This document shows, in pieces, positions 5,210 to 16,126 of a stretch of 64,000 bases of DNA. Below the pieces are notes generated by a model. The model did no database searches, was not told where the DNA came from, and saw only the letters and a list, made by a program, of their open reading frames with translations. The stretch covers positions 1-64,000 of the forward strand of contig MGUG01000020.1 in the NCBI GenBank assembly GCA_001799845.1, written 5' to 3'. The stretch is from Elusimicrobia bacterium GWC2_64_44. GTDB taxonomy: Bacteria; Elusimicrobiota; Elusimicrobia; Elusimicrobiales; UBA9959. How positions within the stretch are numbered: position 1 is the first letter of the stretch; every line of letters starts with the position of its first letter. The translations under genes were made by a program, and so were the position numbers.

Positions 5210-5962
5210 TCAGAGCAGCCCCTGAATGAAAAGCCGGCCTTTGACCGACATCCCCACCGCCTCAAGGCTGGCCGGCTTTGCAAAATAATCGTACGCCCCG
5301 TGCCCCAGGCAGTCGCGCGCTATTTCCTCGTCCGCGTTGCCGCTTATCATCATTACCCCGGTACCCGGCAGTTCCCGCGAAAGGGTTTTCAGCACCTCAA
5401 CCCCGTTGCGGCGGGGCAGGAAGATGTCCAAGAGCACGATATCCGGCCTGTGCGCCTTGGCCAGCTCCTCGGCGGTTACTCCGTCCGCGGCCGTTATAAC
5501 GCCGTAGCCTTCACCCCTGAGGTACTTCCGCAGGACTCGCAGCACCAGGTCGTCGTCCTCGGCTATAAGTATCAGCGGCCGGCCCTGCGCGTCGTCCGTA
5601 GAGGCCAGCCCGAGCAGCCTGTCTATTTCGGAGAGCACGCGGGCCAGGCCTTCGCTCCGGCGCAGGAACACGGCCGTGGTCTCGGATACGGGCCTTTTGC
5701 GCCCTTCCGGCAAGTCAGGGCCGGTAAGGATCATCACGGGGACGTCGGAGGAAAGACGCTTTATCTCCTTGAAGATCTTCGAGCCGGAAACCAGAGGGAC
5801 AGTGAGGTCCAGGACCACCAGGTCAGGAGTCCCGGCCCTGAAGGCCTGCAGCCCGCTGCTGTAGTCGGCCGCCGTCTCCACCTGGTGCCCGTTGCGCAGC
5901 AGGAACACTTTCAGGGCGTCCCTTACTATGCAGTCATCGTCCACTATCAGGATCTTAGCCAT
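5210..5962 (-). CDS. Response regulator with two receiver domains and no output domain
   Basis: 250 residues holding two REC domains. The second (about 130-245) is canonical: acidic pocket E135/D136/D137, phosphoacceptor D179, S/T switch in MMISG, conserved Lys K229 in FAKP. The first (1-115) has acidic residues D8-D10 and D52, but the usual K-P after its last strand is replaced by FLRRSEG, so it may be degenerate. There is no DNA-binding or enzymatic output, so it may act as a phosphate relay or sink. It starts 35 bp after the hybrid kinase stop with a GGAGGG ribosome site and is probably the last gene of the 13313-5210 operon. Confidence 0.88.
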   Translation of the reverse strand: MAKILIVDDDCIVRDALKVFLLRNGHQVETAADYSSGLQAFRAGTPDLVVLDLTVPLVSGSKIFKEIKRLSSDVPVMILTGPDLPEGRKRPVSETTAVFLRRSEGLARVLSEIDRLLGLASTDDAQGRPLILIAEDDDLVLRVLRKYLRGEGYGVITAADGVTAEELAKAHRPDIVLLDIFLPRRNGVEVLKTLSRELPGTGVMMISGNADEEIARDCLGHGAYDYFAKPASLEAVGMSVKGRLFIQGLL

Positions 5963-5997: not shown

Positions 5998-8900
5998 TCA
6001 GTTCATCGCTTCGTTCATCGCGTCATATAGTTCGTCCACAGTGAACGGCTTACCGAGAAAAGGTACTCCCGTGCCCTTCAGCTGCGCCAGCAGCTGCGCG
6101 TTCAGCAGATTTCCCGTAGTGAAGATGAAACCGGCCTTCGTGCCGGCTTTGGCCATGGATTCCCTGACGGAAAACCCTTTCACCGCCCCCATCTCGACGT
6201 CGCATATGATGAGGTCGTAGCGCCCGGCCTGGACTTTCTCTATGCCTTCGGCCCCCGACACGGCGGTATCCACGAACTGCCCCGCGGTTTCCAGCATGCG
6301 CCGCAGCATGGCAAGTATGGCGGGTTCGTCGTCCACTACCAGCACCCTGCGGCCCGGCCGCGGAGGGCGCACGGGCTCGCCGCGCTCCCGCCCTTCCACG
6401 CCCGCCTTTACTATCGGTAGCTCCAGCGTGAAGACCGCGCCGCCCCCTGGAGCTGCGGCGCAGGTTAGAGTTCCGCCGTGGTCCTCAGCTATCCGGCGGC
6501 AGATGGGCAGCCCGAGCCCCGTGCCGCGGCCTTCTTCCTTAGTGGTAAAGAAAGGGTCGAAGATGCGCGGCAGGATGTCCTCGGGTACACCCGGACCGTT
6601 GTCCGCCACCGAGATAAATACCGATGTCGCCTTGTGGAATATCTCTATCACAAGGGTCTTTTCCCCGCTCTCCTGCGAAAGCGCGTCGCAGGCGTTCTGC
6701 ACCAGGTTCACCAGGATCTGCTCTATCTGGTGGTAATCGGCCAGTATCGGCGGGACATGGTCGTCCCCGCGCGTGGCCACGCGGATGTTCTCCGTCTTTT
6801 TTAGTTTGTAGTCCATGAGCGCCAGGGCGCTTTCCACCACCTGCGGGAGAGAGACGGTCTCCTTTTTCCTGCGGGTCTCCCTTACGAACAGCAGCAGGTT
6901 CTTGATGATCTTGCCGCAGCGCACGGACCCTTCATATATCCCCGCGATATCCTCCTCCGGCACCAGCACCGTGCCGTCTTTACGGCTCCGGTAGAGCAGC
7001 TCCGCAAAACCGATTATGGCCCCGAGAGGGTTGTTGAGCTCGTGCGCTACGCTGGAGATGAGTTTGCCGACCGCGGAGAGTTTTTCCGCCTGTATGAGCT
7101 GTGAGTACATCTTGCGGTGCTCGGAGGTGTCGCGGATGACCACCGTCCACTCCTTCGCACCCTTGCCCGAAGCCTTGCCGGAACCGGCCCACGTGACGTC
7201 CAGTTCCAGCTTTTTGCCGGCCGCGCTCAGGCCGGCGACGCAGCGGTCCGAAACGCCCCCGTCCGCCGCCACCTTGAGCAGCAGCATCTCGGCCGCCTTG
7301 GGTTCGAACAGCCTGGAGATATGCTGGCCGTTGATCTCCCCGGCCGCATAGCCGAAAATGGCCTCACCGCCCCTGTTCCAGACGTTTATCCTGAAACTCT
7401 CGTCGAGACCTATGATAGCGTCGGGGGAGTTGTCCAGCACGCTGCGGTAGCGGGCCTCGGAAAGTTTCACGTTGCGCACGAGCCCGGCGTTCTCCAGGGC
7501 AAGGGCAGTGAAATTCCCGAACAGCACCAGGTTGCGCACCTGGTCCTCGGTAATGGGCCCCCGCGACCGCAGGTTATCCGCGCCGATGACCGCGAGCACT
7601 TTTTTATCGGTCATCACCGGCGCCAGGCAGAACGCGGTGGTCCCCACCTCCTCTATGAATCGCCTGTTCACTCCTGGGTGATTGTGCGGGTCGGCCACGT
7701 TGACCGGCGTTCTTTTGCGCACCACTTCGGCCAGGATATCGTCACCGTCCAGCGGCACGGACCTGTCCCTCATTTTAGCCTCGTCGAACCCGACGCCTTC
7801 CGTGGCGTGTACGTACCGGCCCAGTATCCGCTTATTCTTCTCGTCCACCAGGTAGATCACGCCGCGGTCGAAACCAAGCCCCGATACCGCGGCCTCCAGG
7901 CAGACGCGGCAGATGTGCTCCTCTTCCAGGTTTTCAATGATCCCGGCGCTCATCCGCTGCAGGAACAGCAGCTCTTTAATGCGCGATCTCAGGTCCCGGG
8001 TGCGTTCGCTCAACTGCACGGCCATGGTGTTGAAAGACCCGGCCAGCACCCCTATCTCGTCGCGGCTGGAGACTTTCAGCCGTTCGAACTCGCGCCCGGC
8101 CGCCAGCGCCATCGTAGCCCGCACCAGGTCCTCTACCGGTCTCGTCATGCCCTTGATGGTGACATAGATGAACCCCCAGACCAGCAGACCGCAGAAGAGA
8201 ATGAGGGAGACCGTGACGCGGCTGATACTGGTGAGCGGGGCCCGGAAGTCGCTCATAGGCGCGGTCAGCAGGACGCGCAGTTCCGTACCGGGGATGCTCT
8301 CCCGGGCCGTAAAATCCTCCGGCGAAACAGGGTCGCCCTTGTACGCATCTTTCCAGGCCAGTACCCGGTTGCCTCCGGCATCGGTTATATACGCCTGGCC
8401 ATGCCCACCCACCCGCAGGCCGGCAAGCATGTACTGCAGCGGCCGCAGACTGGCCTCCAGCACCACCGCCCCGCGGAACTTCTGTTGATCGTCGTATACC
8501 GCCCGCACGTAGGTTATGGCCGGGCCGTAACGCGGGTCCAGGAAGACGGGCGAAACCAGCGCATCACTGTTTTTCAATGTGGCCGACCGCTTGACCAGCC
8601 CGGCCGCGCCGTCATAGCTACGCGCCGGCATGGGCCTCGAGCCTTCTATGCCGCGGATCAGCCTCCCGTCCGGCCCGGCGAAAAACACCCTGTTATAGAC
8701 CTTCGCCCGCACTGAAAACCTTTTAAAATACTTCTCAAGCTCTCCGAGGTACTGCCCGGCCTCTTCGGCCAGGCCGAAATCCACGTTATTGTAGTAGTCC
8801 GCGAGCAGGGACAGTTCGGAAAGCGTCTGCGCGTCGTTATTCCTCTGCTCGAAGAAAACCTCCACGCCCGAGGCCGCCCCTTTGCTGAAAGCGGCCAGCT

Positions 8901-9045
8901 CCTTCTCCACGCTTTTGGTTATATGCAGCCTTGTATAATAGAACGCCGACGCGCCAAGCAGAACCATCCCCCCCAGCGAGACCGGCACCACTCCCAGCAG
9001 GAACCTGCTGGCCAGCGTGGTTATCTTCGGCGCTGCGGACCTCAT
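5998..9045 (-). CDS. Membrane hybrid histidine kinase (Cache-like sensor, HAMP, GAF, PAS, HisKA, HATPase, REC)
   Basis: 1015 residues. TM1 is about 17-38 and TM2 about 275-297, enclosing a ~235-residue extracytoplasmic Cache-like sensor. Then come HAMP (298-350), GAF (365-520), PAS (530-640), HisKA with phospho-His H668 in SVAHELNNPLG, a HATPase domain with N-box NLVQNACDAL and G-boxes DNGPGVP and GTGLGLPIC, and a C-terminal receiver with phosphoacceptor D949 and a GKPF lysine. It is a complete phosphorelay sensor. Its ATG overlaps the cupin stop (ATGA), and it sits in an operon with a periplasmic-type binding protein, which may present a ligand to it. That partnership is inference. Confidence 0.93.
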   Translation of the reverse strand: MRSAAPKITTLASRFLLGVVPVSLGGMVLLGASAFYYTRLHITKSVEKELAAFSKGAASGVEVFFEQRNNDAQTLSELSLLADYYNNVDFGLAEEAGQYLGELEKYFKRFSVRAKVYNRVFFAGPDGRLIRGIEGSRPMPARSYDGAAGLVKRSATLKNSDALVSPVFLDPRYGPAITYVRAVYDDQQKFRGAVVLEASLRPLQYMLAGLRVGGHGQAYITDAGGNRVLAWKDAYKGDPVSPEDFTARESIPGTELRVLLTAPMSDFRAPLTSISRVTVSLILFCGLLVWGFIYVTIKGMTRPVEDLVRATMALAAGREFERLKVSSRDEIGVLAGSFNTMAVQLSERTRDLRSRIKELLFLQRMSAGIIENLEEEHICRVCLEAAVSGLGFDRGVIYLVDEKNKRILGRYVHATEGVGFDEAKMRDRSVPLDGDDILAEVVRKRTPVNVADPHNHPGVNRRFIEEVGTTAFCLAPVMTDKKVLAVIGADNLRSRGPITEDQVRNLVLFGNFTALALENAGLVRNVKLSEARYRSVLDNSPDAIIGLDESFRINVWNRGGEAIFGYAAGEINGQHISRLFEPKAAEMLLLKVAADGGVSDRCVAGLSAAGKKLELDVTWAGSGKASGKGAKEWTVVIRDTSEHRKMYSQLIQAEKLSAVGKLISSVAHELNNPLGAIIGFAELLYRSRKDGTVLVPEEDIAGIYEGSVRCGKIIKNLLLFVRETRRKKETVSLPQVVESALALMDYKLKKTENIRVATRGDDHVPPILADYHQIEQILVNLVQNACDALSQESGEKTLVIEIFHKATSVFISVADNGPGVPEDILPRIFDPFFTTKEEGRGTGLGLPICRRIAEDHGGTLTCAAAPGGGAVFTLELPIVKAGVEGRERGEPVRPPRPGRRVLVVDDEPAILAMLRRMLETAGQFVDTAVSGAEGIEKVQAGRYDLIICDVEMGAVKGFSVRESMAKAGTKAGFIFTTGNLLNAQLLAQLKGTGVPFLGKPFTVDELYDAMNEAMN

Positions 9046-9440
9046 GCGGCCTTCCTCACTTTCCGCGGCGGCGGGCAGGCCGCGGCGTCAAGGTTCCCGA
9101 AGCCCATGGGCGGGGAGAAAACCGACAGCGCTACCAGCGGCTCCTTGCCCGTCACGATCCGGTGCTTCACGCCCGGAGGGATGACCAGGTAGTCTCCGGG
9201 GCGTATCACCCGGGTCACGTTCCCGAGACAGGCCCTGGCCCTCCCGCTCAGGACGTAGATGAACTCCGCCGTCCTCTTATGCACTCCCCAGGGTATCGCG
9301 GCGCCGTTCTCGTGTATGATCTCGTGCGCGACGGCCACGGGGAAACTCCCCGGCAGGTCCAGGAATTTAATATGCAGCCTGGAGTTGAAGAACGCCCTAG
9401 GCCTGAGCTGCCTGATAGAACCCGCTCTGCACCGTTTCAT
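9042..9440 (-). CDS. Single-domain cupin protein
   Basis: 132 residues, forming one small beta-barrel (cupin 2). Motifs are HEIIHENGAAIPWGVHKRT followed by EFIYVLSGRARA and the second box PGDYLVIPPGVKHRI, which supply His/Glu metal ligands. I chose the ATG at 9440, not a longer in-frame start at 9476, because GGGAGGGAC sits just upstream and the ATG overlaps the preceding stop as ATGA. The stop overlaps the kinase start the same way. Such cupins may be metal enzymes or ligand binders. The context suggests handling or sensing the same metabolite as the operon's enzyme; this is inference. Confidence 0.85.
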   Translation of the reverse strand: MKRCRAGSIRQLRPRAFFNSRLHIKFLDLPGSFPVAVAHEIIHENGAAIPWGVHKRTAEFIYVLSGRARACLGNVTRVIRPGDYLVIPPGVKHRIVTGKEPLVALSVFSPPMGFGNLDAAACPPPRKVRKAA

Positions 9441-10960
9441 ATGTCCCTCCCTGAGAATTCGGCGGAGTAAAAGCACGGCATGCCCGAGAGATACGGGGAA
9501 AATGAAAGGGTCTTATCAAGCCCGTACAGTCTCGTTTTCTGATAGGTGAAAATACTCATCGCGTTCCGGTAAACATAGGCGTCCAGCGCTTCCGCCTTCT
9601 TCAGGGAGGCGCCGTCATCCGGCGCTGACACCATTTCCACCAACAGCTCGTCGAACTTGGCGTCCCCGTCCACGGCGAACGGCGACCCGGAAGCCAGCAC
9701 TATCGCCTGGATGAAATAGGCGTGGCACATCGGGTCCGGGCTGCTGCCCATTATCATGTCGTATTTGCCGCTTTTCACCGCGCTGATCAATTCCGCGTCG
9801 GGAACGACCGTGGTCTGCACCAGGACGCCTATCTTTTTCAGGTCCGACACTATGATCTTCGCCGCCCGCTCCGCGTTGCGTTTGATCACCGCCTGCAGGG
9901 TTAAGCCTTTCGGGAAACCGGCCTGGGCGAGCAGGCGCCTGGCCAGCGGCGGGTCGTATCGGTACGGCTTAAGGTCCCGGTTATGCCCGGCCTCCCCGGG
10001 CATGCTCAGCGTGGAGACGGGTATCCCGTTGCCCAGCAGGTCGTAACGGATCAGGTTCTCCTTGTTCAGCGCGTGGTTCAGCGCTTTCCGGACATTCATG
10101 TCGCTTAGCGGTCCGGATGACAATCTTAAGGCCACCGGCATGGTATAGAAGGACGGCTTCTTCAGGACCGCCAGACGCGGATCGCCTTTAACCTGCAGCG
10201 TCCTCGTGCCGGGCAGGTCTGTGAGCAGGTCGACGGCCCCGGATAACAGCGCGTCGACCTGTTTTTCGTACGGGATAAAATTGAAGGTCAGGCCCTCCAC
10301 CTTGGGAAAGCCTCTCATCCAATAGGCCTTGTTGGCCGCAAACGAGACGAGGCGGCCCTTTTCCCACTCCTTAAAAACAAATGCCCCGGTGCCTACAGGG
10401 TGCTCCGCGAAATATTCCGGGCCTTTCTCCGTCAGATACTTCGGGGGCAGCATCAGCACCAGGCCCGCCAGGCGGTTCAGCAGGAGCGCGTCCGGGTGCC
10501 TGGTCACAATGTCCACCACGCTCCGGCTTACCACTTCCGCATGGCTTATAGAGTCGATGAAATAGTAGCCTGGAAAGCCCGTCTCGGGGCTGACGTACCT
10601 GGCTATGGAGAACCTGACGGCTTCCGCGTCGAACGGTTCCCCGTTATGGAAGACCACGCCTTCCCTGAGGTGGAAGCGCAACCTGTCCGGTCCGGCCTTT
10701 TCCCAGGAAACCGCCAGGGCGGGTTCTATCTTTCCGTCTGGGCTGAACCGCACCAGCCCGTCGAAGATCTGCCAGCAGAGCGTGTAATTCTTGTCCGAGA
10801 ACTGCTTCAGCGGGTCCAGCGTAAGCGGGTCGGCCACGTCGTCGCAGATATTCAGCACGCGCGCGCCGGCGGGCAAACACACGGCCGCGGCCAGCAGGGC
10901 CTGCGCCAGGCAGAAGCCTAAGGTCCTTAATGAGATCTTGATCATAGTTGTCTTACACAT
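9437..10960 (-). CDS. ABC-type solute-binding protein, family 5 (peptide/nickel/oligosaccharide type)
   Basis: About 507 residues from the ATG at 10960; the frame is open further upstream, but this start gives a clear signal peptide (hydrophobic stretch to CLPAGA). The body matches SBP family 5 (DppA/OppA/NikA): LDPLKQFSDKNYTLCWQIFDGLVRF near the N-terminus, LREGVVFHNGEPFDAEAVRFS near 85, and NVRKALNHALNKENLI in the middle. No ABC permease or ATPase gene is present in the window. Between an enzyme gene and a cupin/kinase pair, it may act as a sensory binding protein rather than as part of a transporter. Confidence 0.88.
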   Translation of the reverse strand: MCKTTMIKISLRTLGFCLAQALLAAAVCLPAGARVLNICDDVADPLTLDPLKQFSDKNYTLCWQIFDGLVRFSPDGKIEPALAVSWEKAGPDRLRFHLREGVVFHNGEPFDAEAVRFSIARYVSPETGFPGYYFIDSISHAEVVSRSVVDIVTRHPDALLLNRLAGLVLMLPPKYLTEKGPEYFAEHPVGTGAFVFKEWEKGRLVSFAANKAYWMRGFPKVEGLTFNFIPYEKQVDALLSGAVDLLTDLPGTRTLQVKGDPRLAVLKKPSFYTMPVALRLSSGPLSDMNVRKALNHALNKENLIRYDLLGNGIPVSTLSMPGEAGHNRDLKPYRYDPPLARRLLAQAGFPKGLTLQAVIKRNAERAAKIIVSDLKKIGVLVQTTVVPDAELISAVKSGKYDMIMGSSPDPMCHAYFIQAIVLASGSPFAVDGDAKFDELLVEMVSAPDDGASLKKAEALDAYVYRNAMSIFTYQKTRLYGLDKTLSFSPYLSGMPCFYSAEFSGRDI

Positions 10961-10986: not shown

Positions 10987-12735
10987 TTATGCGGCCTTGA
11001 GGAGTTCCTGCGCGGCTATCTTGTCGAACGTCTTCATCCTGTTGCCCATCGGGGGCGCCTCGTAGAGGTCCGTCTCCGCCTCTATGACGCATGGACCGCC
11101 AGCCTTCAGCGCCTCGCGCAGGCAATCCCCTACGTCGCCCGGATTTTTAGCGCGGAAAGCGCGCGCGCCCAGGCCTTCCGCTATCCCGGCTATATCCAGT
11201 CTCTTGCCGTACAGGCTGCAGGTGAACTTGTCGCCGTAAAGCATCCTCTCGCCGTGATAGATCATACCGCAGCCGCCGTTATTGAGCACCAGCCAGATCA
11301 CCGGCAGGCCCAGGTCCACGGCGGTATGCACCTCCATCCCGTTCATCGCGAAGGCGGAATCCCCGACGAGCGCCACCACGCTCTTGCCCGGCCGGGCAAG
11401 GGCCCCGCCTATGCAGGCGGCCGTGCCGTGTCCCATGGAGAACAGCCCCGTGTTCACGAAGAAATTGCCAGGCTCACGCGAGCAGAAATAGTGGAAGGCC
11501 CAGAACACCGAGGTCCCGGCGTCCACGAAAAGCATGGTATCGGGGGAAATGGCCTCCTGCAGCTCCCGGATGACCCGCTGCGGCTTAAGCGGGACCTGCT
11601 CGGAATCCATCTTTTCCGGGTTCAGCGTACGCGGATTGGCGTCCTTGAATTCCCTGATCCACTGCGGCGACCGGCCCTCCGGCGCGGCCAGCCACTTCAG
11701 GTCCCGGTCCACCTGGTAGCAGAGTTCCCTGAGAGCCGCCCTGGCGTCGCCCAGTATGCCGTGCGCGGCGTGGTAATTTTTGCCTATTTCCTGGGGATCG
11801 ATGTCTATCTGTATCAGGGCTTTCTGCGGCTGCAGCCTGGCGTCCCAGCCGCAGGTGGAAGCCTCGCCGAGGCTGGCCCCGACGGCCAGCAGCACGTCCA
11901 CCTCCCCGGACAGCAGGTATTTCTCCGCCTGGAGCGAGGACCCGAAACCAAGGACACCCAGCGAGAGCAGGTGGTTCTCCGGGAACGCGCCTTTGGCTTT
12001 AGGGGAGGTTACCACAGGTATGCACAGTCTCTCGGCCAGCCTTTTCAGTTCCTCGCAGGCTCCGGACAGATTAACGCCGCTGCCGGCCAGTATCGCCGGC
12101 CGCCTGGCGTTCACCAGCTCCAGCGAGGCGGCCTTTATGGCTTCGCGGTCGAACTGGCTGGACGTGATCCTGTACTGTGCGGTGGGGACCAGGGAGAATT
12201 TCACCGGTTTCTTCATGAAGTCCATCGGGAAGTTGATGTGCACCGGGCCTTTCCTGCCGCTCATGGCCGTCCGCAGAGCGGCCTTCACCACGTCCCCTAT
12301 CTTTTCCGGGGACGGCACCATGACGCTGCTCTTCGTGACCGGCTTCAGGAGGTCCACCACGTCCACGCCGTGGCAGGAGCTCTCCTGGAAAGCGCCCTTG
12401 CCGAAAGCGGACGTAGACACCTGCCCCGTGATCACCAGCAGGGGGATGGAATCGGCATAGGCGCAGGCTATGCCGGTTATCAGGTTCGTCACGCCAGGCC
12501 CCGTAGTAGAACAGCAGACCCCTATCTTGCCGCTGGCCCGCGCGTAACCATCGGCCATGAAAGCGGCGCCCCCCTCGTGCTTGGCGAGGACGGCCTTAAT
12601 TCCGCCCAAGTCGTACATGGCCTCATAGAAATTTATCAGCGCACCGCCGGGAATGCCGAAGACGTACTCTACCCCCTCCCCCTTGAGATATTCCACCAGC
12701 AGCCTTACCGCGGTAGTTTCGCCCGGAGTCGTCAT
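10987..12735 (-). CDS. Thiamine-diphosphate-dependent enzyme, acetolactate synthase large-subunit-like
   Basis: 582 residues with the three-domain layout of the IlvB/POX family. The catalytic Glu is E54 in LAKHEGGAAFMADGYAR. The central domain runs about 195-330. The ThDP/Mg motif starts at G458-D459-S460 and ends at N485-N486, the usual spacing. GDS replaces the commoner GDG. No small regulatory subunit (ilvN/ilvH) is nearby, and the gene lies between regulators rather than branched-chain amino acid genes. It could therefore be catabolic acetolactate synthase, a sulfoacetaldehyde acetyltransferase or another 2-oxoacid enzyme. ATGA overlap with the HTH-REC gene; the binding-protein gene starts 26 bp after its stop. 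Confidence 0.85.
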   Translation of the reverse strand: MTTPGETTAVRLLVEYLKGEGVEYVFGIPGGALINFYEAMYDLGGIKAVLAKHEGGAAFMADGYARASGKIGVCCSTTGPGVTNLITGIACAYADSIPLLVITGQVSTSAFGKGAFQESSCHGVDVVDLLKPVTKSSVMVPSPEKIGDVVKAALRTAMSGRKGPVHINFPMDFMKKPVKFSLVPTAQYRITSSQFDREAIKAASLELVNARRPAILAGSGVNLSGACEELKRLAERLCIPVVTSPKAKGAFPENHLLSLGVLGFGSSLQAEKYLLSGEVDVLLAVGASLGEASTCGWDARLQPQKALIQIDIDPQEIGKNYHAAHGILGDARAALRELCYQVDRDLKWLAAPEGRSPQWIREFKDANPRTLNPEKMDSEQVPLKPQRVIRELQEAISPDTMLFVDAGTSVFWAFHYFCSREPGNFFVNTGLFSMGHGTAACIGGALARPGKSVVALVGDSAFAMNGMEVHTAVDLGLPVIWLVLNNGGCGMIYHGERMLYGDKFTCSLYGKRLDIAGIAEGLGARAFRAKNPGDVGDCLREALKAGGPCVIEAETDLYEAPPMGNRMKTFDKIAAQELLKAA

Positions 12736-13313
12736 AAGGTGTGTTCCTTCCTGCCGCGTATTTCGTTCACCAACGCCATGATCGCGGCGGGCGTGAACGG
12801 TTTTTTCAGCAGACCCTCGGTATTTTTCTGCAGGTATTCTTCCTGCTCTTCCGAAAGCTGCTTGCCGGTAATGGCCACTATCCTGACGCCCGCCGTGTCA
12901 GGATTCCTCTTGAGCGCCTTGCAGACCTCTATCCCGTCCATATCCGGCATCACTACGTCAAGTATGACCAGATCGAACTGGCTCTTCCCTATCATCAGCA
13001 GCGCAGCCATGCCGCGTTCCGCCAGGCAAAGATCTATCTCGTCCGCGTACTCTTCAAAAGTCTTGCGAATCATCGCGAGCATCAGCGTCTCGTCATCCAC
13101 CACTAGCACCCTGTAGCGGCTGTCGGCGAACGAAGCCGGCACGGGCAGATTGAAGCGCTTCAGGAAATCCAGCAGGTCCTGCTTCTCTATGCGCCTGTGA
13201 CCGCCCGGGGTTTCATGCGCTTTTATCTTCCCCTCACCTATCCATCTGATGACCGTGGTGTGCGCAACGCTGCAGATTTCCGCAGTTTCCGAGGTGGTAT
13301 AGAATCTTTTCAT
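12732..13313 (-). CDS. BldC/excisionase-type HTH protein with C-terminal receiver domain
   Basis: 193 residues. Residues 1-55 are a MerR-like winged HTH of the BldC/excisionase group (SVAHTTVIRWIGEGKI, then TPGGHRRI). Residues 67-190 are a receiver domain with acidic pair D73/D74, phosphoacceptor D119, switch T149 and K171 in KKPF. The order DNA-binding then receiver is the reverse of OmpR/NarL regulators. First gene of the operon, with ribosome site GAGAGG. Five direct 9-bp repeats lie at 13349-13393 just upstream. BldC is known to bind direct repeats as head-to-tail oligomers, so autoregulation by this protein is likely. Confidence 0.9.
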   Translation of the reverse strand: MKRFYTTSETAEICSVAHTTVIRWIGEGKIKAHETPGGHRRIEKQDLLDFLKRFNLPVPASFADSRYRVLVVDDETLMLAMIRKTFEEYADEIDLCLAERGMAALLMIGKSQFDLVILDVVMPDMDGIEVCKALKRNPDTAGVRIVAITGKQLSEEQEEYLQKNTEGLLKKPFTPAAIMALVNEIRGRKEHTL

Positions 13314-13348
13314 TTCAGGCCTCTCCCGATAGCCGGATACGCTACTTG

Positions 13349-13393
13349 TGTTAACATTGTTAGCTATGTTAGTTGTGTTCGATATGTTAGTTT
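13349..13393. promoter_or_regulatory. Five head-to-tail 9-bp repeats (putative operator)
   Basis: On the plus strand, TGTT begins at 13349, 13358, 13367, 13376 and 13385, giving units TGTTAACAT, TGTTAGCTA, TGTTAGTTG, TGTTCGATA and TGTTAGTTT. The exact 9-bp phase and conserved TGTTAG core are seen directly. The array overlaps the -10 element and covers the predicted start and early leader of the HTH-REC operon, a position typical of repression. Confidence 0.75.
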
Positions 13394-13417
13394 AACAGAC
13401 AATAGCTCAACTGTCAA
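13389..13417 (-). promoter_or_regulatory. Sigma-70-type promoter of the six-gene sensory operon
   Basis: Minus strand: a perfect TTGACA (13412-13417), a 17-base spacer and TAAACT (13389-13394). Transcription is expected to start near 13382, inside the repeat array, about 70 nt before the ATG at 13313. Confidence 0.75.
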
Positions 13418-13443: not shown

Positions 13444-13472
13444 AAAAGGCCCGGTCTCCCGGGCCTTTTTTT
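13444..13472 (-). terminator. Terminator of the acyl-reductase operon
   Basis: A perfect 11-bp stem (13444-13454 with 13459-13469), loop TCTC, flanked by A/T runs on both sides. It lies just past the stop of the LuxC-PaaK fusion gene and insulates it from the promoter at 13412. Its stem and loop are identical to the terminator at 5155-5180. Confidence 0.88.
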
Positions 13473-13483
13473 GCGCGCGGCGC

Positions 13484-16126
13484 TTAGACATTGACGCGCT
13501 TGTCTATCACCTTGCGGATCTTGCCGGTGCGCTGGATGCGCTCCAGGGAGCCGGGCTTCAGCACTTCCATCTCCGGGCGGTCCAGCCACTTCATGCGCAC
13601 GCTATCGTGCAGGTCCTCGCAATGCCGCTCCAGCTCGCGCCACAGCAGGTCGCCCAGCTCGCCCGCGCGGGCGATCGCCGCCGGGTCCTTGAGCTCGACG
13701 CGGATGGCCAGCGTGTCCTTGTGGCCCTTCTTGGCTATCACCACCTGGAAGTTGAAGCTGAGGTCCGGCACCTTGCCGATGGCCTCCTGGATGTCGTTGA
13801 CGAAGAGGTGCGCCCCGCCGACGTGGATGCGGTCGTCGCAGCGGCCGAGGATCTCGAAGAGGCGCTCGCGGCGGCCGCAGGCGCAGGGCTTCATGAGCCA
13901 GCGGCCCAGGTCGCCCACGCGGTAGCGGATGATGGGCATGTGCTTCTTGGAGAGCCCGGTCACCACCAGCTCGCCTATCTCGCCGTCCTTGACGGGGGCC
14001 AGCGTGTCCTGGTCCACGAACTCTATGAACTGGCTGGAAGTGAACAGGTGGTGGTGGCCCTTCACGCAGTGCGGGCACTGGAAGCCCACCACGCCGGCGT
14101 CGGCGGTGGCGTAGCCGGCCGAGCGCACTTTCACTCCGGGGAAGACACCCTCGAAGAACTTTACCATCTCTTCGCCCACGTATTCGCCGCCGTAGAAGAT
14201 ATGCTTCAGCGGCACTTTGTATTTAGTCTTGTTGGCCCGCACGAACTCCGCCATCTTCACCAGGAAGGAGGGCAGCCCCACCACGGCCGTCACCTGGAAG
14301 TCCTGCAGGTACCCCGCTATGTTCTCCAGCGGCAGATTGCTGCCTACCGGCACCGAGATGGCCTTGGTATAGGAGATGGCTTTCTCCACCGACAGCCAGC
14401 TAGACCAGAGGTTCCCCGCCACGAACAAATTGGCTATCACGTCGCCGTCGCCCAGCCCCGCCGCCTCCATGGAGTAGGCGAGCGTCCGGCAGGTGTGGTC
14501 GTACTCATGCTGGTCGTAGAAAACGTATTTGGGCTGGCCGGTGGAGCCGCCGCTGGCGAAGAAGATGCCGCGCTGCACCTTGCTGGTCAGCAGGTCGGAG
14601 CTGTCGGGGGGCGTGTTCTCCAGCACGTGGTGCTTCTCGAGGAAGGGCACCTGCCGGAAATCCTCCAGCGAAACTATGCGCGGCACGCCCTTGAAATGGC
14701 GCCCGTAGAACGGGCTGCGCGCGCGGGCGTGGTCCACCAGCTCGCTCAGGCGGTCCAGCTGCGAGGGCCGCTCCTCTATGGGCAGCCAGTTCACCAGCGA
14801 CATCATGGGGAAGATCCCGTCGTGCGGGGAGCCGTTGGACTCCTCGAGCATCTTGCCCAGGCGCACCACGCGGGCTATGCCGGCCGGGCCCAGCACTTCC
14901 ATCACGCGCTTGCGCTCTATGGAGCCGCCCACGCCCACGGTCTGGATGTAGCCGCGCAGCGGCAGCAGGCGGTCGCGAACTTCTTCCAGGGTCTCCACGG
15001 TCTTTACGTACAGCACGCGATTTAGCGGCGAGACGCGGTAGACCGGGTCGCTCTCGTGAATGACCGTCCAGTCCGTCTTCGGGGCGGAACTTACGAAAGA
15101 AGCATTGCCCAGCGCCGCGTCCACCCGGGCCAGCTGGCGGGCCTTGTTTATCTCCACCATCTCGTCTGGCGAGAGCTTGCCGGGAGGCAGGTCGGCAGCG
15201 AGCTGAGCGAAATGGGTCTTCGCGCACTTAAGGAATTCGGCCGCGTACTCTTTGTGTTTCTTCGCGGGCGCTATCAGGTAAAGGGTGTGCAGCGACGAGC
15301 AGGCCGCCTGGTCCCACAACGAGGCGTCGAGCGCCGCGCGGCGGGCCACGTTGTCCATGCCCTCGTGCTTCACGCAGCTCTCGAACACCACGCCCACGCT
15401 GGTCTTGGGGCCGAAGCCCTCCACGCGCACGTCTATCGGCGCTATCCTGCGGTAGGCCTGCACGGCGTCGTAGCCGCCCCAGACGAACACGGCGTTGACG
15501 TGCTTGAGCGCGGCCTCTTCCAGCGCCTGAGTGCCGCCCTTCCAGCTCAGCACGGCGGCGGAGCCGGCGAGGACGCCTTTCTGGTCCGCTTCTTTGAGCG
15601 CGGTCATGAAGAGGCTGATGAAGTTGGAGCCGGCCGAGGACACCTTCACCAGGTTGACGTTCTTGGTCAGGAAACCGAGCACCAGCGAATCGAGGATGCC
15701 GAGGAAGACGTTGCCGGCGCCGACATGCAGCACCACGCCCTTTGGCATGGCGCGGATGAGGCCCTCATAGCCGCGGCGCTCCACCGACGCCTCGAGCGCG
15801 TAGGGGATGAAGAGCTCCATGTTGAGGCGCTTGTTCAGGCCCTGTTTATTGAGCAGCTCAGGTATCACGTCGAGGGTTTTCTCTATGACCGGCACCGAGA
15901 AGGTGATATGCCGCTTCAGGTGGGCCAGCGCCGCCTTGCGGTAGGCGCTGCCCTTTTCGAACATCTTGCCGGCCCGGGCCAGCGTCTCTATGATGTACTC
16001 ACGCGGCACGCCGCGCAGCCGCTCCCTCGCCGCTTGCGCCTGCAGGCCCAACTTTTCCAGTTCGGCCGGGGTCCAGGCGGCCTTGTCGCAGGCCTTGCCG
16101 AATAAATAGGTGTTGTATATTTTCAT
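13484..16126 (-). CDS. Fusion of LuxC-type acyl reductase and PaaK/LuxE-like adenylate-forming domain
   Basis: 880 residues. Residues 1-450 match LuxC, the NADPH-dependent fatty acyl reductase: VVLHVGAGNVF near 131 and nucleophile C276 in WDQAACSSLHTLY. Residues 455-880 resemble phenylacetate-CoA ligase/LuxE-type adenylating enzymes: P-loop-like ASGGSTGQPKY (524-534), YRVGDLGRW, and a Cys pair CACG near 800. LuxC accepts an acyl group activated by LuxE and reduces it to aldehyde, so activation and reduction may be joined in one chain. A separate LuxE-like gene is upstream. No luxAB is present, so the aldehyde probably serves another pathway; the product is unknown. Confidence 0.85.
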   Translation of the reverse strand: MKIYNTYLFGKACDKAAWTPAELEKLGLQAQAARERLRGVPREYIIETLARAGKMFEKGSAYRKAALAHLKRHITFSVPVIEKTLDVIPELLNKQGLNKRLNMELFIPYALEASVERRGYEGLIRAMPKGVVLHVGAGNVFLGILDSLVLGFLTKNVNLVKVSSAGSNFISLFMTALKEADQKGVLAGSAAVLSWKGGTQALEEAALKHVNAVFVWGGYDAVQAYRRIAPIDVRVEGFGPKTSVGVVFESCVKHEGMDNVARRAALDASLWDQAACSSLHTLYLIAPAKKHKEYAAEFLKCAKTHFAQLAADLPPGKLSPDEMVEINKARQLARVDAALGNASFVSSAPKTDWTVIHESDPVYRVSPLNRVLYVKTVETLEEVRDRLLPLRGYIQTVGVGGSIERKRVMEVLGPAGIARVVRLGKMLEESNGSPHDGIFPMMSLVNWLPIEERPSQLDRLSELVDHARARSPFYGRHFKGVPRIVSLEDFRQVPFLEKHHVLENTPPDSSDLLTSKVQRGIFFASGGSTGQPKYVFYDQHEYDHTCRTLAYSMEAAGLGDGDVIANLFVAGNLWSSWLSVEKAISYTKAISVPVGSNLPLENIAGYLQDFQVTAVVGLPSFLVKMAEFVRANKTKYKVPLKHIFYGGEYVGEEMVKFFEGVFPGVKVRSAGYATADAGVVGFQCPHCVKGHHHLFTSSQFIEFVDQDTLAPVKDGEIGELVVTGLSKKHMPIIRYRVGDLGRWLMKPCACGRRERLFEILGRCDDRIHVGGAHLFVNDIQEAIGKVPDLSFNFQVVIAKKGHKDTLAIRVELKDPAAIARAGELGDLLWRELERHCEDLHDSVRMKWLDRPEMEVLKPGSLERIQRTGKIRKVIDKRVNV

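Follow-up and report, generated by a model that had tools for sequence, protein, structure and literature searches.

A BldC-like HTH-receiver protein and a putative 9-bp direct-repeat operator at the promoter of its own operon in an Elusimicrobia bacterium

Five direct repeats with an exact 9-bp period lie at the promoter of a six-gene operon, the first gene of which encodes REG, a protein with a BldC-like winged helix-turn-helix (wHTH) and a C-terminal receiver. From our analysis of the window (the whole stretch of DNA studied, 64,000 nucleotides) and of related genomes, the array is a predicted binding site for REG. We propose, with a probability of roughly three in four, that it is the REG operator, on which a BldC-type filament would autorepress the operon while phosphorylation of the receiver would tune its output.

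Results

The array, its promoter and the regulator gene are as follows.

13346-13390, minus strand: putative operator array of five 9-bp direct repeats (from the sequence, conservation in orthologues and uniqueness in the genome)
13389-13417, minus strand: sigma-70-type promoter TTGACA-17-TAAACT with TG before the -10 (same layout in orthologues)
13444-13469, minus strand: intrinsic terminator of the upstream LuxC/AMP-binding gene
12732-13313, minus strand: REG, 193 aa, HTH_17 plus C-terminal receiver, predicted array binder (Pfam, alignment and structure model)

The initial annotation had described five TGTT repeats in 9-bp steps, overlapping the -10 of this promoter, and a direct reading of the sequence bears out both points: TGTT begins at 13349, 13358, 13367, 13376 and 13385 of the plus strand, and array and -10 share 2 bp. 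On the minus (coding) strand the unit consensus is (C/T)(T/G)AACANNN, and the units read 5' to 3', from 13390 down to 13346, CTAACATAT CGAACACAA CTAACATAG CTAACAATG TTAACACAA. The promoter, with its -35 at 13417-13412, a 17-nt spacer and its -10 at 13394-13389, is the only promoter-like site found in the region, and it is isolated by the terminator at 13444-13469 that separates it from the upstream gene. That gene, directly upstream of the operon at 13484-16126, is a single reading frame in which a LuxC acyl-CoA reductase domain is fused to an AMP-binding (acyl-activating) domain. The array begins inside the -10 box and extends about 40 bp downstream of it, and transcription is expected to start near 13382, within the array.

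With a TGTT frequency of 0.0018 in the 64-kb window, five copies in phase are expected 6e-8 times per 3.09 Mb. No lag-9 self-match within the window is stronger than that of the array, and none of 1000 dinucleotide shuffles of the upstream region equalled its score (p 0.001). As a four-unit pattern it is the sole match in the 3.09-Mb assembly, in which a search with three TAACA units, one mismatch being allowed, gave no second match either. Promoters are AT-rich, and some matches in other genomes look incidental (those in the dnaA-dnaN spacers of L198 and L202); nevertheless, given this expected number, the conservation in orthologues and the enrichment of period 9 alone in 106 upstream regions (both below), chance or plain AT-rich promoter sequence is scarcely credible as an explanation.

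REG is followed by five further genes, tightly packed on the same strand.

10987-12735, minus strand: ThDP-dependent enzyme of the acetolactate-synthase superfamily, overlapping REG by 4 bp; a conserved neighbour
9437-10960, minus strand: family-5 extracellular solute-binding protein (SBP), start approximate
9042-9476, minus strand: small cupin protein, for which an internal ATG at about 9440 is a possible start
5998-9045, minus strand: hybrid histidine kinase dCache-HAMP-GAF-PAS-HisKA-HATPase-REC (domain calls; a conserved operon member)
5210-5962, minus strand: tandem double-receiver protein, the last operon gene, with a terminator-like site at 5233-5249 (minus strand)

The ThDP enzyme scores below the NCBIfam cut-offs for AHAS, and its nearest solved structure, far closer than any other, is BbmA (8x3x, E 1e-170). 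Its sequence is thus consistent with a reaction that may differ from acetolactate synthesis. The hybrid kinase is the likely cognate kinase of REG.

Pfam places HTH_17 at residues 4-53 of REG and the receiver at residues 69-182 (Response_reg, E 9e-24). The receiver carries the full set of key residues, namely the acidic pair D73/D74, the phosphoacceptor D119, T149 and K171. D74, D119 and K171 are invariant and D73 and T149 nearly so, and by sequence the receiver appears intact and phosphorylatable.

The label BldC-like, given to REG in the initial annotation, is upheld by the best Foldseek matches, 6ama and 6amk, and by a sequence match at about 1e-3 (phmmer E 0.0013). A full-length model of REG returned only receivers among the Foldseek matches listed, and the HTH was therefore modelled alone (pLDDT 91.7). 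BldC chains (6ama, 6amk) made up seven of the eight best matches of this HTH model, at ranks 1-5, 7 and 8, and the model superposes on 6amk with an rmsd of 1.0-1.1 A over 50 columns; judged by the model, no structure in the PDB resembles the REG HTH more closely than BldC. In the alignment, BldC T27, R30, W31, G44, H46, R47, R48 and E16 correspond to REG T20, R23, W24, G37, H39, R40, R41 and E9, so that the BldC DNA-contact residues R30, W31, H46, R47 and R48 are all kept. In A3, W24, H39 and R41 are invariant and R40 is nearly invariant. For the base read by R23, a comparison with AATTNNNNC of BldC leaves the register ambiguous (CTAACANNN or CANNNCTAA).

The residues that join BldC protomers are conserved in part. 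The head-to-tail contact positions kept in REG are V16, W24, G37 and E9 (the BldC set being F21, V23, W31, L43 and R22-E16), and the changes among the oligomer contacts are F21 to C14, R22 to S15, I40 to H33 and L43 to P36. P36 is non-polar, as the head-to-tail contact requires, at a position where classical MerR proteins have a charged or polar residue (PMC5859096). Given the changes at F21, R22 and I40, a head-to-tail interface in REG is putative. REG has no coiled-coil dimerisation helix of the classical MerR family; its receiver follows the wHTH. Its promoter has direct repeats at and past the -10 instead of the classical MerR palindrome between -35 and -10. Nor is REG, with 193 aa and a receiver, the small stand-alone wHTH protein that is a trait of the BldC family.

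Seven other genomes of the family encode an orthologue of REG with 53-74% identity, and another set of regulators lies near 40%. Those relatives of the loci that carry a name belong to the Elusimicrobiota. The order REG, ThDP enzyme, SBP, cupin and kinase is kept wherever the contig is long enough, apart from a single genome in which about 1.7 kb is inserted behind REG. The initial annotation had named orthologous operons without phased repeats as a result that would refute it; instead, phased repeats are present in seven of the eight type-A orthologues and in the three testable type-B operons, L042 being marginal by the shuffle test. In the seven, three to six exact-phase YTAAYANNN units stand at the matching place, and both the N bases and the copy number vary; each upstream region gave a lag-9 self-similarity of p=0.001 (1000 dinucleotide shuffles), and the other lags from 5 to 15 gave no signal. 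The eighth genome, G038, has a type-A protein and no array at its own operon. A four-unit YTAAYANNN array occurs elsewhere in that genome, in the intergenic DNA before a lycopene-cyclase-like gene (L189, ~1501-1535; G038:C16:117218-117250), and is a possible moved or additional target.

In type B the regulator gene lies inside the operon, after the cupin or SBP gene and before the kinase gene. In all three type-B operons that have the promoter of the ThDP-enzyme gene on the contig, the array sits at that promoter, with lag-9 shuffle p values of 0.004, 0.002 and 0.07 (the last for the marginal L042) and with its CTAAY motif on the opposite strand (TTAGT). The array therefore tracks the operon promoter and not the start codon of the regulator. 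In L042 (3571-4056) a type-E regulator and a type-B operon are transcribed away from a shared spacer, in which each of the two promoters has a 9-bp array of its own, different from the other.

The repeats could instead act as RNA in the 5' UTR, as a leader peptide, as sites for an RNA-binding protein or as an mRNA stability element; the transcript probably includes most of the array, and a 9-bp unit has the length of three codons. However, the array starts in the untranscribed -10 box, the reversed strand of the type-B motif is not tolerable for an RNA, and on inspection the reading frames of the unit either lack a start codon or have a stop in each unit. We consider a role as RNA very improbable.

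All 8 genomes with a type-A protein contained an exact three-unit array, as did 1 of the 51 that lack the protein (Fisher p=4e-9), and when the count is restricted to arrays at the promoter of the regulator itself the figures are 7/8 and 0/51 (p = 2e-8); these counts cover 59 genomes, the kinship of which means that the p values overstate independence. The sole array-bearing genome without the protein has its array in the dnaA-dnaN spacer. A search of 15 genomes for further targets gave, as extra matches, coding sequence (L181), dnaA-dnaN spacers (L198, L202) and the intergenic site in L189. In L198 (G053:C42) and L202 (G049:C21) the dnaA-dnaN spacer contains TAACA units that are A-like and in 9-bp phase, perhaps an origin feature or chance.

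The genome of REG itself contains at least two further HTH-receiver genes (C27, C34), each with a different 9-bp array after the -10. The first, at about 46.2 kb of G000:C27 (L040), reads ATAACAAAG CTAAAGAAG GTAATAAAA..., and the second, at about 8.2 kb of G000:C34 (L041), reads TATCAAAAA GGCCAAAAC TCGCAAAAA... Such genes raise the alternative that a different protein, either an HTH-receiver paralogue or a global regulator, binds the array at 13346-13390 and that the adjacency of REG is incidental; BldC itself acts at many promoters. That the paralogues own different arrays, that the array tracks the type-A protein across the 59 genomes and that this genome has a single such array all argue against it, and we regard another binder as quite unlikely.

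The 9-bp period extends to other HTH-receiver genes. For 106 distinct genes with upstream DNA, from Elusimicrobiota, Acidobacteriota, Myxococcota, Omnitrophota and others, we scored the best self-match over 27 comparisons at lags 5-15. Scores of at least 19 were reached by 17 upstream regions at lag 9 and by none at any other lag, and scores of at least 17 by 45 at lag 9 against at most 6 at the other lags. With the HTHs clustered at 70% identity, the median was at least 16 in 8 of 23 clusters at lag 9 and in 0-2 at the others. Nine is thus the only enriched period upstream of these 106 genes. A period-3 coding signal was considered as the cause of the lag-9 signal and rejected, since lags 6, 12 and 15 are not raised.

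The unit is particular to the subfamily: YTAAYANNN in type A, approximately YAAAARTCR in D1 and approximately AAAGTAANA in E. The Omnitrophota (approximately AAGTAGTAT) and Myxococcota (approximately AAAYCGTGA) sets are small and their units weaker. In types A, D1, D2 and E the first base of the array is usually no more than about 10 nt from where the -10 box starts. The self-match scan found no 9-bp array at the own genes of the Acidobacteria VQNW or the Myxococcota VLSW and VSKW subfamilies. Subtypes B and D have Asn or Ser at the position of BldC R30; the repeat unit differs in type D, and type B retains an A-like motif with a near-identical VAHTTVI helix. The sequences are thus suggestive of a relation between the residue at this position and the unit.

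Two other conserved elements were observed near these genes. A stem-loop, GGCAGGGCTGCCTTTTGGGGGGTAGGGTGAGGGAGGCAGCCCTGACA or a variant of it with a loop resembling GGGGGGTAG, occurs beside type-D genes (L023-L031) and before the ThDP gene (L043/L042), with a copy beside the D1 gene of the present genome (G000:C34:8955-8978); it had no Rfam match at the gathering cut-off in the four loci searched. An AT-rich element, ATAATTATATATTAAAT / ATTATAAAACATAATATATATAAACGCAAC, lies about 70-100 bp upstream of D-type promoters (e.g. L022, L024-L026, L030-L032) and is possibly a divergent promoter.

Discussion

The initial annotation had proposed that REG binds the array and either represses the operon or switches it on phosphorylation, and our analysis largely supports that reading. 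In the mechanism that we propose, each 9-bp repeat would take up one REG protomer through the winged HTH, and neighbouring protomers would stack head-to-tail into a short filament. Reaching from the -10 box over the start site and the first transcribed bases, this filament would block RNA polymerase, and REG would repress its own operon, that is the regulator, ThDP enzyme, solute-binding protein, cupin, hybrid kinase and double receiver. It is because the array covers these elements that polymerase exclusion and autorepression are proposed; given binding, autorepression is the simplest reading and a probable one, its sign being argued only from position. Since the receiver and a kinase are encoded in the same operon, phosphorylation is the likely input to REG, and it would alter filament assembly and so set operon output, with the operon's own kinase as the probable donor.

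REG could also bind the array as an activator, with a filament seeded by phosphorylated REG bending the DNA at the -10 and start site and aiding open-complex formation. Proteins of the MerR class activate poor promoters by distorting promoter DNA, and the -10 boxes of type A are imperfect (TAAACT, TATACT, TAAAAT). Additionally, BldC bends DNA by ~50 degrees (PMC5859096). However, the array occupies the -10 and the DNA past it instead of the interval from -35 to -10. Furthermore, the -35 and the 17-nt spacing are near consensus and the -10 of type D1 is a perfect TATAAT, so no activator looks needed. Activation therefore appears unlikely, though less so than a different binder or an RNA element, and autorepression by REG is the reading that we prefer.

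A full-text search of open-licence papers turned up no account of BldC-, HTH_17- or MerR-type response regulators, and none of 9-bp arrays in the promoters of such genes. The paper on BldC mentions only small BldC-like proteins and possible integrases (PMC5859096), and its head-to-tail 9-bp mode has so far been described for a small stand-alone protein. What appears to be new here is the BldC-type DNA-binding mode as a putative two-component output. More tentatively, and with rather less than an even chance of being right, we suggest a widespread, hitherto undescribed class of response regulators in which phosphorylation would gate the growth of BldC-type filaments on 9-bp arrays; every subtype would have a particular 9-bp word at the promoter that it controls, its own, and array length would set the response, which would amount to a readable protein-to-operator code. 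If this is true, the BldC binding mode serves two-component signalling output in several phyla, a phosphorylation switch is coupled to cooperative filament formation, and the operators of regulators in uncultured bacteria are predictable from sequence alone. With their large number, and with a distinct repeat word next to the gene of each, the subtypes form a natural data set on DNA recognition by MerR/BldC-type HTHs.

Several known systems share features with REG. PhoB/OmpR, PmrA and PhoP likewise combine a phosphorylatable receiver with direct-repeat operators (putative for REG) and a kinase encoded alongside. In these classical response regulators the repeat period is about 11 bp, against 9 bp at the REG array; in REG, moreover, the receiver is C-terminal and the DNA-binding domain is of the MerR/BldC type, not the OmpR, NarL or Fis type. 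CarH and LitR have a B12-dependent architecture with a MerR-like wHTH N-terminal to the sensory domain, and use direct repeats near the promoter; they are tetrameric cobalamin light sensors with a longer repeat spacing. CarH is among the structural matches of the REG HTH model, and unlike REG neither protein has a receiver.

RdfS and Xis, which share the HTH_17 class wHTH with REG, form head-to-tail filaments on DNA (PMC11963761). In contrast to REG, these recombination directionality factors control excision, have no clear consensus repeats and carry no receiver.

The closest likeness is to BldC of Streptomyces, the founding member of its family. BldC takes up exactly one 9-bp direct repeat per protomer and stacks head-to-tail on sites of differing length (PMC5859096), in agreement with the initial annotation, which had described BldC-type MerR relatives as head-to-tail oligomers of variable length on direct repeats. 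BldC and REG share a GGHRR-type MerR-like wHTH with the same recognition-helix Arg and wing His/Arg, and the BldC sites and the putative REG site share 9-bp direct repeats in variable number, an AT-rich unit with a conserved pyrimidine and promoter targets. BldC is a 68-aa stand-alone global regulator that controls many promoters, whereas in REG the wHTH is fused to a receiver, the operon also encodes a hybrid kinase, and in this genome the array is confined to that operon.
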